Of a DNA stretch of 44,698 nt, positions 3,568-36,461 are shown in pieces. A program made the translations under genes and the position numbers. Source of the stretch: a virus. Under the pieces are notes generated by a model. It worked only from the letters and a program-made list of their open reading frames with translations, was not told where the DNA came from and made no database searches. Location: positions 1 through 44,698 of IMG/VR virus record IMGVR_UViG_3300025120_000120. One strand, written 5' to 3'. Position 1 is the first letter of the stretch; every line of letters starts with the position of its first letter.

Positions 3568-4250
3568 TGCAATTTACTCATCATAATTATCTCGGTGACA
3601 TTGAACTAAACAAGAAAGAAACAAATGGCATCCGTCTCTACAACCTTCCAAGTGGAGACTGGGTTCCTTCTATCACATCAGTAACTTCTTTTTACAACCG
3701 ACAGATCTTTGTCAAGTGGCGTAAGCGAGTTGGTATTGAAGAAGCAAATCGTATTACGAAGAAAGCAACTACTCGTGGTACCGATTTCCATGAAGCAGTT
3801 GAAGTGTACATGCGGAACAATGAAATAAACTGGGATGACTTTCGTCCTCTTACTCAGTTTATGTTTCATCATGCCAAACCATATCTGGATAAGATAAATA
3901 ACATACACGCTATCGAAAGGACTCTGTACTCTGAGTACCTTGGATTGGCTGGTAGGGTAGACTGTATCGGAGAATACGAGGGAGAGTTAGCAGTCATTGA
4001 CTTTAAGACATCTGAAAAGATTAAACCTGAAAAGTGGTTAGAAAATTATTTTGTTCAGGAAATGTTTTATGCTTCAGCATACTTTGAGATGACTGGTATC
4101 CCTGTCAAAAAACTTATTACCATTATGGTGACTCCCAGTGGTGAAGTAGAAGTATTTGACAAAAGGAACAAAGGGGATTATATTAAACTTCTAGTTCGTT
4201 ACATTAAAGAATTTGTACATCACAATACTAGGGCGCAGAATGGAGAATGA
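3567..4250 (+). CDS. PD-(D/E)XK exonuclease (MGME1/Cas4-like)
   Basis: 227 residues of the RecB/Cas4-type nuclease superfamily. The likely active-site residues are H75 (FHEAVE), D132 (GRVD), D145 and K147 (VIDFKTS) and Q164 (FVQEMFYA). The order H...D...DxK...Q is that of the family. It probably degrades or processes single-stranded DNA ends during replication or recombination. This is a standard cyanophage gene annotated simply as exonuclease. It overlaps its neighbours on both sides. Confidence 0.88.
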   Translation: MQFTHHNYLGDIELNKKETNGIRLYNLPSGDWVPSITSVTSFYNRQIFVKWRKRVGIEEANRITKKATTRGTDFHEAVEVYMRNNEINWDDFRPLTQFMFHHAKPYLDKINNIHAIERTLYSEYLGLAGRVDCIGEYEGELAVIDFKTSEKIKPEKWLENYFVQEMFYASAYFEMTGIPVKKLITIMVTPSGEVEVFDKRNKGDYIKLLVRYIKEFVHHNTRAQNGE

Positions 4251-4497
4251 ACTAGAAAAAGCACTAGAAAAGAAATTCTTCTGCCCGTCAAAATTTGCAC
4301 ATGATATTGAACACCTTGTTCTTGATAACAAAGGTATGAGTTACATCGATGCCATTGTTCACTTCTGTGATCTAAATGCAATTGACGTGGAATCTGTACC
4401 CAAACTTATTTCAAAACCTCTTAAAGAGAAGTTAAAATGTGAAGCAACGGAACTTAACTTTTTAAAGAGAACATCTCGTGCCAAATTGCCTCTTTGA
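4240..4497 (+). CDS. 33: Late promoter transcription accessory protein gp33
   Basis: An 85-residue protein matching cyanophage gp33 in its core features: an N-terminal acidic helix, FCPSKFAHDIEHLV, SYIDAIVHFCDLN, and the ending LNFLKRTSRAKLPL. In T4, gp33 bridges host RNA polymerase (beta flap) and the sliding clamp to activate late promoters. ATG at 4240 is chosen because the protein family begins at MENELE; an upstream in-frame ATG (4213) lies deep within the exonuclease gene. The late boxes listed elsewhere in the window are its expected targets. Confidence 0.85.
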   Translation: MENELEKALEKKFFCPSKFAHDIEHLVLDNKGMSYIDAIVHFCDLNAIDVESVPKLISKPLKEKLKCEATELNFLKRTSRAKLPL

Positions 4498-4550
4498 TTC
4501 CAAAAAGGGGGCAAAAATTTTTCCGGCAAATTTTTCACTTATAGGATTTT
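4498..4550 (+). repeat. Conserved intergenic element, copy 1
   Basis: Starts directly after the gp33 stop. It contains AAAAAGGGGG, then an 8-bp inverted repeat AAAAATTT/AAATTTTT flanking TTCCGGC, then TATAGGATTTTT just before the gp59 start. A close copy lies at 22730-22785, with CCGGCAAATTTTT identical (4523-4535 and 22755-22767). Possible roles are a processing hairpin, an attenuator or a regulatory site; the sequence alone does not decide. Confidence 0.6.
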
Positions 4551-4556
4551 TCAGTG

Positions 4557-5153
4557 ATGCCGTTCGATGCATATAAATCATATATCTCTTTAAAGAATCA
4601 TTTTACTAAAGAGAAATACGATTATCATAAGTACTGCGGTAAAAGTCGTGCCTCAGTACAATCTTTTTATAAACGCAAAGATAGATTTTGGTTTGAAAAA
4701 TTATCACGTAACAAATCAGATAAAGAAGTAATTGAGTTTTTTGTATCTAACTTTATTGATTGCACTGATCCAGGAAAACTGTGGATTGGTGAAATGATTC
4801 GAGAAGGTGAAGGTAGATACGTATCATGGAAAAAACGAACTCAATCTCTTACATATCTTTTCAAGGAAGAGACTGATAAAATTTTCTTTGATAATAATTT
4901 CGATTCAATGTTTGCTTTGAATGGATCAAAACATCCTCAAATTCTAAAAGAATATTTGAAAAGTAATATATCTATTGAAACGATGGTAATTTTAAATCAT
5001 ATACTTGGATACAAAAATAATTGGGATAAGCAATTGAAAGATCCAGTATGGGAATCTGTTAGTATGAAAATTAGAAAATACTCACCCTTTCTAAATATTG
5101 ATGTATTTCGTTATAAAAAAATACTTAAACAGGTAGTCCTAGGAGAAACATGA
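4557..5153 (+). CDS. 59: Replicative helicase loader gp59
   Basis: 198 residues homologous to T4 gp59, which loads the gp41 helicase onto gp32-coated forks. Supporting motifs are YDYHKYCGKSRASVQSFYKR-like N-terminal text, RFWFEKLSR, and WIGEM; the order and total length (T4 about 217) agree. ATG 4557 is preferred over GTG 4554; AGGA at 4543-4546 serves as the ribosome binding site. It is followed with a 4-nt overlap by the DUF1825 gene and then gp32, its known partner. Confidence 0.85.
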   Translation: MPFDAYKSYISLKNHFTKEKYDYHKYCGKSRASVQSFYKRKDRFWFEKLSRNKSDKEVIEFFVSNFIDCTDPGKLWIGEMIREGEGRYVSWKKRTQSLTYLFKEETDKIFFDNNFDSMFALNGSKHPQILKEYLKSNISIETMVILNHILGYKNNWDKQLKDPVWESVSMKIRKYSPFLNIDVFRYKKILKQVVLGET

Positions 5154-5494
5154 GTTTTTTTGAATCCGAAGTAGTTCGGGCAGAAATGACACAGATCCAG
5201 GAACTTCAAGAAGAAGTTTATGGTAATGTCTTTAAATTTCCCTCTATGTCAAAAGTGGAGAAGAAATTTCATGTTGCTTTGATGGAAAAACTTCTTGATA
5301 AACAAAAAATCCTTTATGCTCGTTTGAGTTTATCGGATGATCCTGAAGCAAAGATGATGAAATCTCGCATTGTAGAATCTGCTACAATGATGGGACTACC
5401 TCAAGACGTTGACATCAATGTTGTCTTCTCTAACATGAGTAAGATGCTTGATACGATGAAGAAGCAACTTGACATTCAGGGTGACGAGTTGTAG
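5150..5494 (+). CDS. DUF1825 family protein (cyanobacterial type)
   Basis: 114 residues. The opening MSFFESEVVRAEM and the later MEKLLDKQKILYARLSLSDD, then NMSKMLDTMKKQL, follow the pattern of DUF1825, a small all-alpha family otherwise typical of cyanobacteria (MAFFDSEIV... RFELSDD... ERMK). The function is unknown. The start is supported by AGGAG at 5140-5144. Placement between gp59 and gp32 suggests a role at the replication fork, which is an inference. Its presence is one of the better pointers to a cyanobacterial host. Confidence 0.75.
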   Translation: MSFFESEVVRAEMTQIQELQEEVYGNVFKFPSMSKVEKKFHVALMEKLLDKQKILYARLSLSDDPEAKMMKSRIVESATMMGLPQDVDINVVFSNMSKMLDTMKKQLDIQGDEL

Positions 5495-10321: not shown

Positions 10322-11041
10322 ATGCCTTTACCAAAAATTGCTACACCAACTTATGAGTTGGAATTGCCATCTACTGGAAAAACAATTAAGTATCGCCCCT
10401 TTCTTGTAAAAGAAGAAAAGTTATTAGTTCTTGCACTTGAAAGTGATAACCCCAAAGAAATAACTAATGCTATTAAAGCCGTTTTAAAAGATTGTATTCA
10501 GACACGCGGCGTTAAGGTTGAATCTTTACCTACATTCGATATTGAATTTCTTTTTCTTAATATTCGTGGTAAGTCTGTCGGTGAAGATATTGAAGTGAGT
10601 GTTCTTTGTCCTGATGATGGAGAAACTTATTCTGAAATTGAGATCAATATTGATGACATTAAAGTTGTAAAACAAAAAGATCATACAAATCAAATTAAAA
10701 TTGATGATACTTTGATGATGGAGATGAGGTACCCATCCCTTGATCAATTCATCAAAAGTAATTTTGAATTCAGTGAGGATAGTAAAGTTGATCAATCATT
10801 TGAATTAATTTCATCATGTATTGATAAAGTATATTCTGTGGATGAAGCGTGGACTACTGATGATTTCACTAAAAAAGAAATAACTGACTTTTTGGAGCAG
10901 ATGAATTCTCAACAGTTTAAAGAAATTGAACGTTTCTTCTCTACCATGCCTAAATTGTCGCATGAAATAGAGGTTGTTAATCCTAAGACAAAGAAAAAAG
11001 GCACTGTTGTACTTGAGGGATTGGCAAGTTTTTTCGCATAG
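10322..11041 (+). CDS. 26: Baseplate hub assembly protein gp26 (tail-assembly chaperone G-like)
   Basis: 239 residues of the T4 baseplate gp26 type (T4 gp26 is 208). The opening ATPTYELELPSTGKTIKYRP then FLVKEEKLLVLALES resembles phage tail-assembly chaperones, which often begin 'LPSGK.x.RP'. The last sense codons are AGT TTT TTC GCA and then TAG. A T-TTT-TTC slippery heptamer (11029-11035) plus a hairpin lies at the stop, and the -1 frame runs straight into the next ORF. This predicts a 239-residue short form and a 300-residue fusion. The two tape-measure-like genes follow, as expected for G/GT proteins. Confidence 0.85.
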   Translation: MPLPKIATPTYELELPSTGKTIKYRPFLVKEEKLLVLALESDNPKEITNAIKAVLKDCIQTRGVKVESLPTFDIEFLFLNIRGKSVGEDIEVSVLCPDDGETYSEIEINIDDIKVVKQKDHTNQIKIDDTLMMEMRYPSLDQFIKSNFEFSEDSKVDQSFELISSCIDKVYSVDEAWTTDDFTKKEITDFLEQMNSQQFKEIERFFSTMPKLSHEIEVVNPKTKKKGTVVLEGLASFFA

Positions 11042-11067
11042 CACTCTCCCATATGAATTTGGAGAGT
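11029..11067 (+). other. Predicted programmed -1 ribosomal frameshift signal
   Basis: The heptamer T TTT TTC (11029-11035) is in the gp26 frame and fits X-XXY-YYZ. After a 7-nt spacer, ACTCTCC (11043-11049) pairs perfectly with GGAGAGT (11061-11067) around an 11-nt loop. After a -1 slip the frame reads CGC ATA GCA CTC TCC CAT ATG and stays open to the stop at 11221. The zero-frame stop TAG (11039-11041) lies between the heptamer and the stem. Confidence 0.75.
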
Positions 11068-11223
11068 TACTTTAAATTAAATTTTTCTTTGATGCAGTAT
11101 CATAAATACTCATTAACAGAGATTGAAAACATGATACCTTGGGAGAGAGACGTATACGTTGAACTCTTAAGATCACATTTAGAAGAAGAGAAACTTAAGA
11201 TGCAACAGCAGCAGGCACAATGA
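11053..11223 (+). CDS. T-domain-like extension of gp26 (tail-assembly chaperone partner)
   Basis: 56 codons from an ATG, and 62 codons counted from the frameshift site. The sequence FSLMQYHKYSLTEIENMIPW then ERDVYVELLRSHLEEE resembles the T part of lambda-type GT chaperones: helical, a 'YHKYS..EIE..PWERD.Y' core, and a charged tail ending in QQQQAQ. Its ATG sits in the loop of the frameshift hairpin and has no Shine-Dalgarno upstream (only pyrimidine-rich TTTTTTCG...CTCTCCC), which favours expression as a gp26 fusion. The TGA overlaps the next ATG. It is far shorter than T4 gp51 (249 residues), the gene after 26 in T4, so that name is not used. Confidence 0.75.
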   Translation: MNLESYFKLNFSLMQYHKYSLTEIENMIPWERDVYVELLRSHLEEEKLKMQQQQAQ

Positions 11224-13082
11224 ATCTAGAAGATCTTTTAAAGTCAATCAGAGAAGAAGATGACTCTAAAGGAGGAAAGATTGATGGTGAAAAATTATTA
11301 AAGAGAAAATCTTTTGAAAATCCTTTAAAAGGACAAAACTTTACTGCTCCTAGTATTCCTGGTGCTGGTGCTGCTACAAAACCAATAATTAAAGAAATTG
11401 ATCTTAAAATTGAACCTGAGAAATTAATTCCACCAAAAGAAACAACAGAAGCAAGCAAGGAATTAATTGAAAAAATTAATGAACTAATTGCTGTTATTAA
11501 AGCAGACAATAAACTTGAAAAAGATGCACAGACTTTTGATAAAAGACAAGATCAGAAGAAAAAAATACAGAAAAGAGAAAAAAGAATAGAAGTAAATAAA
11601 ATATTTAAAGGTGTAAACGCTGGGTTTGGAAAAGTACAGAAAAAAATTGGAGGAGTATTTGATAGTATATTAAAATTTGCAGGACTTACATTATTAGGAC
11701 AAATCATTTCAATTGTTACTAATTTTTTAGCAGATCCTAAAAATGAAAAATTTATTACAAACGTTCAGAACTTTTTCAAAAGTTTACCTGAAAAATTTGA
11801 AACATTTAAAGAAGAATTTCAAAAACTCATAGACTGGTTTAAAAAAACAAAAGAAGATATTGAAAAATTTGCAGAAGATTTCCGAAAACTTTTAGCAGCG
11901 TCTCCATTTTTGGGACAATATTTTGCAACCGAAGAAGAAAAAGAGAAAGGACTTCCCGTCGCTCCTGGATTGAACTTGCAACCGGGTGGAATACCTTTAC
12001 CTAATACTGGGCCATTAGGTTTTCCTATGTTTGTTCCTTTTGCTACTGGTGGATTTGCTATGGGAACAGATACTGTTCCTGCGATGTTAACTCCAGGTGA
12101 GTTTGTAATGAGTCGTGGTGCTGTCAGCATGTTTGGTAGTGATACCATGATGGCAATGAATAAAGCAGGAGGAGGAAATAATCGTCCAAAGTATGGAATG
12201 GTTTCTGGATATAGTGAAGGTGGTGGTGTTGGAAAAATGCCTCAAAAAGGCAGGGATTTCTGGACATTAGTTGCAGTCGCAGGAACTGAAGATAATGATC
12301 CACAGGCCTGGGCAGATGTAGCACAATCAATTTATAATAGAGCATCATCTGGTGTTTACGGTGGTGGGAGTGATATAAGACAATTAATTCTTCAACCTAA
12401 TCAGTATGAACCAACATGGAAACACCCAAGAAAAAAATTGGAGAAGACTCCGAACCCAGAGTGGTATAATATATCAGACATTCAGAGTGCTGCTATTGCC
12501 ACTGGAAAGTCAGTATCTTATTTGCAAAGAGTTGCAGATACGCTTCAAAATCAAGAACGTCAAGATGAGGCAAGAAGATTTGTTGGTGCGAGAACTGACT
12601 TCATGGGTGGTAAAGAAAAAGCAAAATTTGAAAATGGTGATGTAAGAAGAGGTAAGCAAGGTGAAGATAATTTCTTTGGATCATTTGTAGGACCTGGTTC
12701 TATAGATTATGCAGCAACTAATCCTGATCCAGGTGCTATTCCAGGATTCGTTGGAACAAAGACTATACCAAAACCTGAGAAGTTATCACCAACCACACCG
12801 TCATCATTACCAATTCAACCCAAAAATGAATCATCTGGGTTTGATTTAAAAAATGAAATTAAATTTATATTCAAAACTCTTAGGAATATAGTTCCTGTAT
12901 ATCCACTCAATCCTCGATCAAGTAATAAATTTATTGTTCTTCCTCCTATTGCACAAAATGAACCATCAAATAGTGTAGTTACTTCACAAAAAGCAAATGA
13001 TATCCCAGACTTTAACATATCTGGAAATGTTAAGATGAGAGGCCTTGTCGGTAAGGCACTTGGTATTGAGGACTTAGTATAA
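11220..13082 (+). CDS. Tape-measure-like tail protein with SleB-like cell-wall hydrolase domain
   Basis: 620 residues. It starts with a charged coiled-coil-prone region (to about 135) and a hydrophobic stretch (144-170, GGVFDSILKFAGLTLLGQII). A motif at 282-302 (GTDTVPAMLTPGEFVMSRGA) is common in tape-measure proteins. From about 345 to 490 a hydrolase resembles SleB (Hydrolase_2): LVAVAGTEDNDPQAWADVAQ with candidate catalytic E357, an IYNRA motif, and a later ILQPNQYEPTW. It would span the tube and cut peptidoglycan on DNA delivery. The start overlaps the preceding stop (ATGA); the stop overlaps the next ATG (TAATG). Confidence 0.75.
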   Translation: MNLEDLLKSIREEDDSKGGKIDGEKLLKRKSFENPLKGQNFTAPSIPGAGAATKPIIKEIDLKIEPEKLIPPKETTEASKELIEKINELIAVIKADNKLEKDAQTFDKRQDQKKKIQKREKRIEVNKIFKGVNAGFGKVQKKIGGVFDSILKFAGLTLLGQIISIVTNFLADPKNEKFITNVQNFFKSLPEKFETFKEEFQKLIDWFKKTKEDIEKFAEDFRKLLAASPFLGQYFATEEEKEKGLPVAPGLNLQPGGIPLPNTGPLGFPMFVPFATGGFAMGTDTVPAMLTPGEFVMSRGAVSMFGSDTMMAMNKAGGGNNRPKYGMVSGYSEGGGVGKMPQKGRDFWTLVAVAGTEDNDPQAWADVAQSIYNRASSGVYGGGSDIRQLILQPNQYEPTWKHPRKKLEKTPNPEWYNISDIQSAAIATGKSVSYLQRVADTLQNQERQDEARRFVGARTDFMGGKEKAKFENGDVRRGKQGEDNFFGSFVGPGSIDYAATNPDPGAIPGFVGTKTIPKPEKLSPTTPSSLPIQPKNESSGFDLKNEIKFIFKTLRNIVPVYPLNPRSSNKFIVLPPIAQNEPSNSVVTSQKANDIPDFNISGNVKMRGLVGKALGIEDLV

Positions 13083-25017: not shown

Positions 25018-25283
25018 AGCATCACGTCCCTGATGAGATTAGAAAGAATTCTTTTGATTGCTTCAAGAGTTTGAATGAAGCAGAGAGAGCAGTTGTTATG
25101 TATGGTGATGATGCATATCGGGAGTCATTAGATCTTGATAATGATGATGCTCCCTGTTGGAAGATACCAAGTGGTGAATCGACAACATTTGTTGGATGGA
25201 ATCCCCAATGTATTCCAACAATTGATTACATAGTATGGAAACTAAAACGTCGTGAACAAATTGCTAAAGGAGAAATTTACTAA
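25014..25283 (+). CDS. Hypothetical conserved early protein
   Basis: 89 residues, MKHHVPDEIRKNSFDCFKSL then NEAERAVVMYGDDAYRESLD, and PTIDYIVWKLKRREQIAKGE at the C-terminus. It overlaps purM by 1 nt (TAATG). No domain is recognised. It is located between purC and purM and is probably translated with them. Confidence 0.6.
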   Translation: MKHHVPDEIRKNSFDCFKSLNEAERAVVMYGDDAYRESLDLDNDDAPCWKIPSGESTTFVGWNPQCIPTIDYIVWKLKRREQIAKGEIY

Positions 25284-26218
25284 TGGATTATAAGACTGCT
25301 GGTGTTGACATTATTAAAGGACGTTCATTTGTAGAGTATCTAAAGGTACTGGCACCTAAGATTGGTGGGTTCAATGGAATGATGGAGATCCCATCTGGAT
25401 ATGAGAACCCTGTACTAGTATCTGGTGCTGATGGTGTCGGAACTAAGATGAATATCTGTAGGATTGCTGATGATTACACCACTATTGGCCAGGATCTCGT
25501 TGCTATGTGTGTCAATGACGTTATATGTTCTGGTGCTAAACCATTATATTTTTTAGACTATATCTCTACCAAATCACTTGATGCCAATGTGAGTGACATT
25601 GTGTATGGAGTTAATGTTGGTTGTGTGATGGCTGGAATGGAACTACTGGGTGGAGAAACTGCAGAGCATTATAGACAAACTGATTATGATCTTGCTGGTT
25701 TCTGCACTGGTATTGTAGAGAAGAATGATATTGTTGATGGTAGTAATATTAGAGCAGGTGATGTAGTCATCGGTATTGAGAGCAATGGACTTCATAGTAA
25801 TGGGTACACACTCGTCAATGATATGTTATGGAGGAATTATATTTACTACAAGGAGATGCCTGAGTTGTTGAGGCCAACCACCATCTATGCCCGTCTAATC
25901 CAGCACCTGTTGGACGAAGTTCCTATCCTAGGCATGGCACATATTACTGGCGGAGGACTGCCTGAGAACCTTCCTAGGTGCCTTCCAGCAGGTCTTACCG
26001 TTGATGTTGACTATGGAGCATGGGATGTCCCAGAAATGTTTGAGACTATTCAACTTGCTGGCAACATCTCTGATGATGAGATGAGAAATGTATTCAATAT
26101 GGGTATTGGATTCTGTTTAGTTGTTCCAAAAGAAGTAGCGACATTAACTCAGAATTTAATTGCTGACACACCATTTGGTATGAGATCTTGGATCATTGGA
26201 AATGTGAAAGAAAATTGA
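25283..26218 (+). CDS. purM: AIR synthetase PurM
   Basis: 311 residues; bacterial PurM is about 345, so this is slightly short. It converts FGAM to AIR with ATP. Features are MDYKTAGVDIIKGRSFVEYL, the VSGADGVGTKM segment, DLVAMCVNDVICSGAKPLYF, ELLGGETAEH, ESNGLHSNGYTLV and HITGGGLPENLPR, all in family order. It is the last protein gene of the early purine operon; the tRNA gene follows within 6 nt. Confidence 0.96.
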   Translation: MDYKTAGVDIIKGRSFVEYLKVLAPKIGGFNGMMEIPSGYENPVLVSGADGVGTKMNICRIADDYTTIGQDLVAMCVNDVICSGAKPLYFLDYISTKSLDANVSDIVYGVNVGCVMAGMELLGGETAEHYRQTDYDLAGFCTGIVEKNDIVDGSNIRAGDVVIGIESNGLHSNGYTLVNDMLWRNYIYYKEMPELLRPTTIYARLIQHLLDEVPILGMAHITGGGLPENLPRCLPAGLTVDVDYGAWDVPEMFETIQLAGNISDDEMRNVFNMGIGFCLVVPKEVATLTQNLIADTPFGMRSWIIGNVKEN

Positions 26219-34928: not shown

Positions 34929-36461
34929 ATGGCAGTAGATAAGAGTTTTGTCGTAAAGAATGGCTTAGAGGTTAACTCTGATCTTATTGTAACTGATATA
35001 ACCGACAGTCAAAATAAAAAAGTCGGTATTGCGAGTACAGCACCACGCACGACATTAGATGTTCGTGGTGGAATTGCTGCAACAGATGGTAACTTCAGTG
35101 GTATTCTTACCGCAGCAAGTGTAGATATCTCAAGCTTTGGTGCTATTAGAGGTACTGAAGCAACCATCACCGGATTCTCCACACTTGGAGGATTGACGGT
35201 AGATCAATTGACTGTATCTGGTGTTGCCACCTTTGCAGATCTTTCTTATGATGAGATAACAGGTAGAAATATTAATATCACAGGTATCGCTACGATTCCT
35301 GTTTTTGATGGAACTACGGCATTTAATGATGGCGTAACTGTTGTTGGTGTGGTAACCGCAGCACACTTCGATGGAGGTGGACTTGGCGTTGGTGTTGCTG
35401 ATTCCACTGGCACCGTCGTTGGGTATGGATTTACCATGCTCAAATTTATTGGAGCAGGAAATACCTTCGCTGTTGATGGAACAACAGTTGACATTAGCAT
35501 CACCGGAGGTAGCGGAGGCGGCGGCGGAGGAGGATCCGCCAGTATTGGTATTGGTACAACAGTAGGGGATGCTTTCACTGGTATTGTTACCGCAGGTAAT
35601 CTTTGGTATAATACAGGTGAAGGTAGATTATTCATCTATTACCAGGATATAGATTCTGCACAATGGGTTGATGCTGCACCATTCAATGTTGGTATTATTA
35701 CCTCTCTATCGGAAATATCATTCGTTGCTGGTTCTGCTGCAGCACCCTCAATTTCGTTTGGAGCTGATTCAGATTCTGGTTTTTTCTCTGCTGGTACAGA
35801 TCAACCAGGAGTTACTGCTGCTGGTTCCCAGGTTGCTAGATTTAATCCTAGTGGATTAAGTGTCACTGGTGTTGTCACGGCAACCAGTTTCTCTGGTGAC
35901 GGTGCTGGATTAACAGGTGTTGCCAGCACGGATAATATACAGACTGCTACTGAAGCAACATTTTTAAGTGGAGTTAAGATAGCAGGTGTTACCACTGCAT
36001 CTGGAGGTGTTGTTGGTAATGTAACTGGTAATGCAACAGGATTATCTGGTTCTCCAAACATTGTAGTTGGTTCTATCACTGCATCATCAGGAAGTGTAAG
36101 TGGTAATTTGAGTATTGGTGGTACATTAACGTACCAAGATGTCACCAACATGGATGTGTTGGGTATTGGTACATTCCAGCAAGGTGTTCAAGTTCTTGCT
36201 AATGGGCTTGATATTACTGGATTCTCTACATTTAAGACTGGTGTAAGTGTCACTGGTGTTGTTACTGCCTCTCAATTTAGTGGAGGTGGATTGGGAGTTG
36301 GTATTAAAACTACCGGTGGAGTTATTGGTTATGGATTCACTAACCTTAACTTTATTGGAGCAGGAAATACCTTCTCCGTTGATGGAACAACAGTTGATAT
36401 CAGCATCGCTGGCGGCGGTGGTGGTGGTTTTAGTATGTTACAATATATTCTTGCCCTTTAA
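34929..36461 (+). CDS. Tail fibre-like protein with internal duplication
   Basis: 510 residues. The opening MAVDKSFVVKNGLEVNSDLI is typical for this fibre class. The body has repeated strand units 'GVVTATSFSGDGAGLTGV' and 'ITGFSTLGGLTV'. A module of about 48 residues (GGGLGVG...VGYGF...FIGAGNTF.VDGTTVDISI) is present twice, near residues 150 and 452, each ending in a Gly-rich stretch. It carries the YQD.TNMDVLGI.TFQQG module also found in the fibre at 43718. Probably a trimeric host-contact fibre. Confidence 0.75.
   Translation: MAVDKSFVVKNGLEVNSDLIVTDITDSQNKKVGIASTAPRTTLDVRGGIAATDGNFSGILTAASVDISSFGAIRGTEATITGFSTLGGLTVDQLTVSGVATFADLSYDEITGRNINITGIATIPVFDGTTAFNDGVTVVGVVTAAHFDGGGLGVGVADSTGTVVGYGFTMLKFIGAGNTFAVDGTTVDISITGGSGGGGGGGSASIGIGTTVGDAFTGIVTAGNLWYNTGEGRLFIYYQDIDSAQWVDAAPFNVGIITSLSEISFVAGSAAAPSISFGADSDSGFFSAGTDQPGVTAAGSQVARFNPSGLSVTGVVTATSFSGDGAGLTGVASTDNIQTATEATFLSGVKIAGVTTASGGVVGNVTGNATGLSGSPNIVVGSITASSGSVSGNLSIGGTLTYQDVTNMDVLGIGTFQQGVQVLANGLDITGFSTFKTGVSVTGVVTASQFSGGGLGVGIKTTGGVIGYGFTNLNFIGAGNTFSVDGTTVDISIAGGGGGGFSMLQYILAL
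35367..36420 (+). repeat. Internal direct repeat of about 145 bp (35367-35515 and 36276-36420)
   Basis: Two copies within one fibre gene. They share a 23-bp identical block, starting TTTATTGGAGCAGGAAATAC, at 35445 and 36351, with high similarity around it. The protein copies differ at a few residues only. Confidence 0.9.

Follow-up and report, generated by a model that had tools for sequence, protein, structure and literature searches.

A predicted −1 frameshift joins gp26 to a small helical domain in a T4-like phage, in the manner of a tail assembly chaperone

The stretch analysed here (the window) is a viral record of 44,698 nucleotides, IMG/VR IMGVR_UViG_3300025120_000120, in which a gp26 gene is followed by a small ORF and then by a long gene on the same strand (Table 1). 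Read directly, the 3′ end of gp26 is GCA AGT TTT TTC GCA TAG, so the gene closes on a run of six T, one C, and a stop two codons later. The first 232 positions of phrog_150 align with gp26 and positions 242-280, the last 40, align with the small ORF, which implies that some members of this family hold both parts in one chain. Assignment of the next gene as a tape measure comes from weak matches only; in pelagiphage HTVC008M, a putative tape measure is annotated a short way downstream. Farther along the window (25283-26218), an auxiliary metabolic gene, purM (phosphoribosylaminoimidazole synthetase; phrog_1207, E 2.6e-184), lies just upstream of a tail fibre gene.

Table 1. Features of the gp26 region, in window coordinates
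Feature	Position	Strand	Remarks
gp26 (short form, TAC-N / 'G'), 239 aa	10322..11041	+	PF12322 T4_baseplate, E 2.6e-74; phrog_150 baseplate hub, E 2.4e-77
Slippery heptamer T TTT TTC, phased for −1 slippage	11029..11035	+	identical in 81/81 sequences
Predicted extension in the −1 frame (TAC-C / 'T' domain), 62 codons past the slip	11035..11223	+	then TGA 11221-11223
7-nt spacer GCATAGC	11036..11042	+	includes gp26 stop TAG (11039-11041)
Hairpin 5′ arm ACTCTCC, 7 bp	11043..11049	+	register specific to the window's lineage
Hairpin 3′ arm GGAGAGT, 7 bp	11061..11067	+	pairs perfectly with 11043-11049
Small ORF, usually annotated as separate gene 'gp51, baseplate hub assembly catalyst'	11053..11223	+	phrog_634, E 1.4e-26; phrog_150 positions 242-280
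Next gene	11220..13082	+	ATGA overlap with the −1 stop; weak matches to tail and tape-measure families

Sequence searches of the PDB with gp26 and T4 gp51, of NCBIfam with gp26 and the −1 peptide, and of Rfam with the frameshift region returned no match. The AlphaFold2 model of gp26 (pLDDT 85) had no significant match in a fold search of the PDB; among the PDB hits listed, the most probable was the weak one to the HK97 tail assembly chaperone 2ob9_B (probability 0.75, E 0.99, 62 columns), and we treat this resemblance as a lead only.

The original prediction, made from the window alone, placed a canonical in-frame slippery heptamer at the end of gp26 with a 7-nt spacer after it, and both are present. 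The heptamer takes its first base from the end of the AGT codon, a phase that fits simultaneous −1 slippage at a site of the form X XXY YYZ; the slippery site of phage lambda is G GGA AAG. Conservation was measured in the window together with its 80 closest IMG/VR relatives (67-86% identity), 81 sequences in all, every one of which has TTTTTTC at the same position. Third-base entropy is zero at gp26 codons 236, 237, and 238 and at no other codon of the gene, giving this triplet the lowest value of the gene (rank 1 of 216). The codon before TTT TTC may be AGT, TCT, or GGT and always ends in T; elsewhere in gp26, serine codons end in T in 63% of cases and phenylalanine is written TTT in 72%. Among 20 coding sequences checked in the window, an in-phase TTTTTTC occurs twice, the second time at 35780-35786 within a tail-fibre-like gene (34929-36461), probably by chance.

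As had been claimed, no stop interrupts the −1 frame before the one at 11221: after the slip it reads RIALSHMNLESYFKLNFSLMQYHKYSLTEIENMIPWERDVYVELLRSHLEEEKLKMQQQQAQ, and the predicted fusion is a protein of 300 aa made of gp26 residues 1-238 and 62 further residues. From the heptamer, this frame stays open for 62-68 codons in 79 of the 79 loci that are not cut by a contig end. In the 80 relatives, homology to the small ORF lies in frame −1 wherever it was detected, and the ORF went undetected in one locus alone, whose contig ends early.

Constraint on the −1 protein reaches further upstream than the annotated small ORF. Past the heptamer, second codon positions in the −1 reading are mostly invariant, whereas the 0 and +1 readings show little conservation and many stops, and the stretch from the heptamer to the ATG spells F-F-R-(I/V/L)-(A/G/S)-(M/L)-x-H in the −1 frame of nearly all sequences. 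The peptide is conserved from residue 1, the FF of the heptamer, and in the window FFRIALSH precedes the annotated ATG; this constraint is a direct observation, as are the site, the frame, and their conservation. A tblastn search with the −1 peptide matched 597 phage records, and nearly all of the matches listed start at residue 1, eight codons 5′ of the annotated start. The small helical T-like domain of the prediction is recovered in the AlphaFold2 model, which is all-helical (pLDDT 88) and has four helices. Of these, the first spans residues 2-7 and lies upstream of the ATG (residue 9), so an ORF begun at the ATG would cut the domain. A fold search with the T domain was uninformative save for one viral record, A0A8S0HX62, which matches gp26 at 64% identity and the T domain at 71%.

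The perfect 7-bp hairpin described downstream of the heptamer exists and is modestly stable, with a minimum free energy of the RNA of −8.8 kcal/mol (z −1.98; 8 of 200 shuffles equally stable), but it is not kept family-wide. Across the family, 41.9% of cells at this exact stem are paired, against 41.9% in shuffles, and we rejected it as a family-wide element. Most relatives have instead a 5-bp stem of the type GGUCC-AUAU-GGACC that starts three bases further on. It is paired in 86% of cells; shuffling the partners gives 79.5 ± 0.9%, and sliding them no more than 54%. Compensatory cells number 42, and each of the five pairs shows change in both arms. Mean folding energy over the 3′ region has its minimum just past the heptamer. 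A stem-loop is usually present, in a register that varies, with modest covariation and in overlap with coding sequence, a pattern that supports, and does not prove, a putative stimulatory stem-loop 3′ of the heptamer.

The invariant heptamer, the open −1 frame, and the conserved −1 peptide strongly support the predicted G/GT-type fusion, and we put the probability of a programmed −1 frameshift that joins gp26 to a T-like helical domain, acting as a tail assembly chaperone, at roughly 95%. If the locus instead encoded two separate proteins, as most GenBank records have it, ribosomes that had stopped at TAG 11039 would re-initiate at ATG 11053, and the small ORF would yield an independent "hub assembly catalyst" (gp51). 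Such a start would leave the invariance of the heptamer without explanation, along with the conservation of the −1 protein from the heptamer onward, and in T4 gp51 the same domain is fused to a gp26-like part. The ATG itself is found in most relatives, with Met at this residue in 77 of the 81 sequences, and is near enough to the stop for re-initiation; it is missing from the annotated site in L063, L072, S-CAM4, S-PM2, P-SSM2, and P-HM2, and in L032 and L060 the −1 frame has no ATG in its first 60 nt. The prediction had also pointed to this ATG as lying in the hairpin loop without a Shine-Dalgarno sequence. Position and absence are both as described, but several other genes in the window likewise have none, weak Shine-Dalgarno sequences being common in this phage, and we dropped the absence as evidence. 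Because the −1 peptide is conserved from residue 1 and some relatives have no ATG, a separate gene is very unlikely, and the small ORF is probably the C-terminal half of a fusion.

A fusion could also arise during transcription, if slippage on the T6 run added one T to the mRNA or removed two, and the run is indeed present and invariant. Polymerase slippage usually needs 8-9 or more T, however, and six is short. In distant relatives the run is interrupted and the frame relation persists (A ATT TTC, C CTT TTT), conservation extends to the slip phase and to the C that follows the run, as tRNA re-pairing predicts, and a stem-loop is present downstream. Slippage by the polymerase is very unlikely. 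The chance that the arrangement reflects a sequencing error or a decayed fusion gene is negligible, since one frame relation recurs across 80 independent metagenome contigs as well as isolates from many hosts.

If translation of gp26 proceeds by frameshifting, most ribosomes would end at TAG 11039 and release the short form of 239 aa, while a minority would slip one base back on U UUU UUC as the Phe-tRNAs re-pair from UUU/UUC to UUU/UUU, aided by the stem-loop immediately downstream. The slipped ribosomes would then read the −1 frame to 11223 and produce the 300-aa long form with its added small helical domain. By analogy with lambda gpG/gpGT, the two forms, present in unequal amounts, may coat the tape-measure or hub proteins, deliver them as the tail is assembled, and then depart. 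We infer the slippage itself, its efficiency, stimulation by the hairpin, and chaperone action from sequence patterns. The likeness to lambda gpG/gpGT (Xu, Hendrix and Duda 2004, Mol Cell) is one of arrangement, a short protein that a −1 frameshift lengthens by a small domain, encoded ahead of the tail-length genes; no sequence relation to it emerged from the searches here.

Tail assembly chaperones (TACs) of this kind are not new to T4-like phages. Vladimirov, Gautam and Davidson (2022, Virology 566:9-15) are cited in PMC12846349 and PMC10885494 for the identification of gp26/gp51 as the TACs of T4-like phages; the poly-T slippery sequences are credited to them in PMC12846349, and PMC10885494 mentions that some T4-like phages have one short and one long gene in place of frameshifting. 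The statement in the original prediction that no report was known for gp26 in T4-like phages, and with it the suggestion of novelty, fails on this publication. The feature in the window is an ordinary member of that published system, with the same gene family, a short form together with a frameshifted long form as in some of its groups, and nothing essential different, and the idea was already known. The abstract of Vladimirov and colleagues reportedly describes frameshifting as conserved in several T4-like groups, and is said to designate T4 genes 26 and 51 as TAC-N and TAC-NC. The present analysis confirms at large scale, for T4-like marine phages, the picture of one chaperone gene with two frameshift products, and adds conservation figures for the heptamer, the frame, and the −1 protein, the small ORFs without a start, the stem-loop test with its variable stem, and the degenerate sites of Ackermannviridae. 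The TACs of Vandenendeviridae and Andersonviridae, for which PMC12846349 gives a GTTTTT motif, belong to other phage families and use another slippery motif than the window.

The comparison with T4 itself places both genes in one family. T4 gp26 and gp51 both belong to PF12322, as does the window gene, and the C-terminal domain is found on gp51 only, which alone spans phrog_150 to position 280. Residues 211-244 of T4 gp51 align with the −1 peptide family (pairwise E 0.00025, probability 43%), with NYSLNSI..MIPAER at the C terminus set against KYSLTEIENMIPWER. Whereas the window has one gene that is predicted to frameshift, T4 has two that are divergently transcribed (3803-4429 (−) and 4480-5229 (+) in locus L089), and its gp26 ends in TTC TTT with no heptamer. 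The natural reading is that in T4 two paralogues, a short gp26 and a long gp51, replace one frameshifting gene. T4 genes 26 and 51, whose role is described in PMC3004832 as long unclear, would then become a duplicated version of a single frameshifting chaperone gene.

The name "gp51" or "baseplate hub assembly catalyst" in many phage records would accordingly denote a fragment and not a gene. Some deposited records carry the T domain as a separate gene (L126 1989-2081, L081 2215-2392, and others), shorten it (P-HM2, 30 aa), or leave it out (S-CAM4), and these treatments look like annotation errors.

The same arrangement extends beyond the closest relatives of the window, to distant groups whose sites read T TTT TTC, T TTT TTT, T TTT TTA, or T TTT TTG. 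It is found with T TTT TTT in pelagiphage HTVC008M and Acinetobacter phage SH-Ab 15599, with T TTT TTA in Pseudoalteromonas phage XG4, and with T TTT TTG in Rhizobium phage RHph_I9, and it also occurs in freshwater cyanophage BUCT-ZZ01, Stenotrophomonas phages DLP_6 and Moby, Aeromonas phages CC2 and Ah1, and Vibrio phages VH7D and 6E35-1b. A scan of IMG/VR with the gp26 of Vibrio phage K397 as query found no relative. In the Ackermannviridae (EP75, Ds25CZ, Magnus, Kuja, VAP7) and the related K397, the −1 relation to the T domain persists at degenerate sites, which at six loci read A ATT TTC, C CTT TTT, C GTT TTT, or A CTT TTC. Judged by these codons, the P-site tRNA would be unable to re-pair in the usual way, and a perfect heptamer is thus apparently not required everywhere. 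Tentatively, and with more doubt than confidence in the two parts taken together, we suggest that in cyanophages a short stem-loop formed by T-domain codons (those for V/I-H-M-D/N-L) stimulates the frameshift and is maintained for that role through compensatory changes, and that Ackermannviridae shift at degenerate N NTT TTY sites with full re-pairing by the A-site tRNA only.
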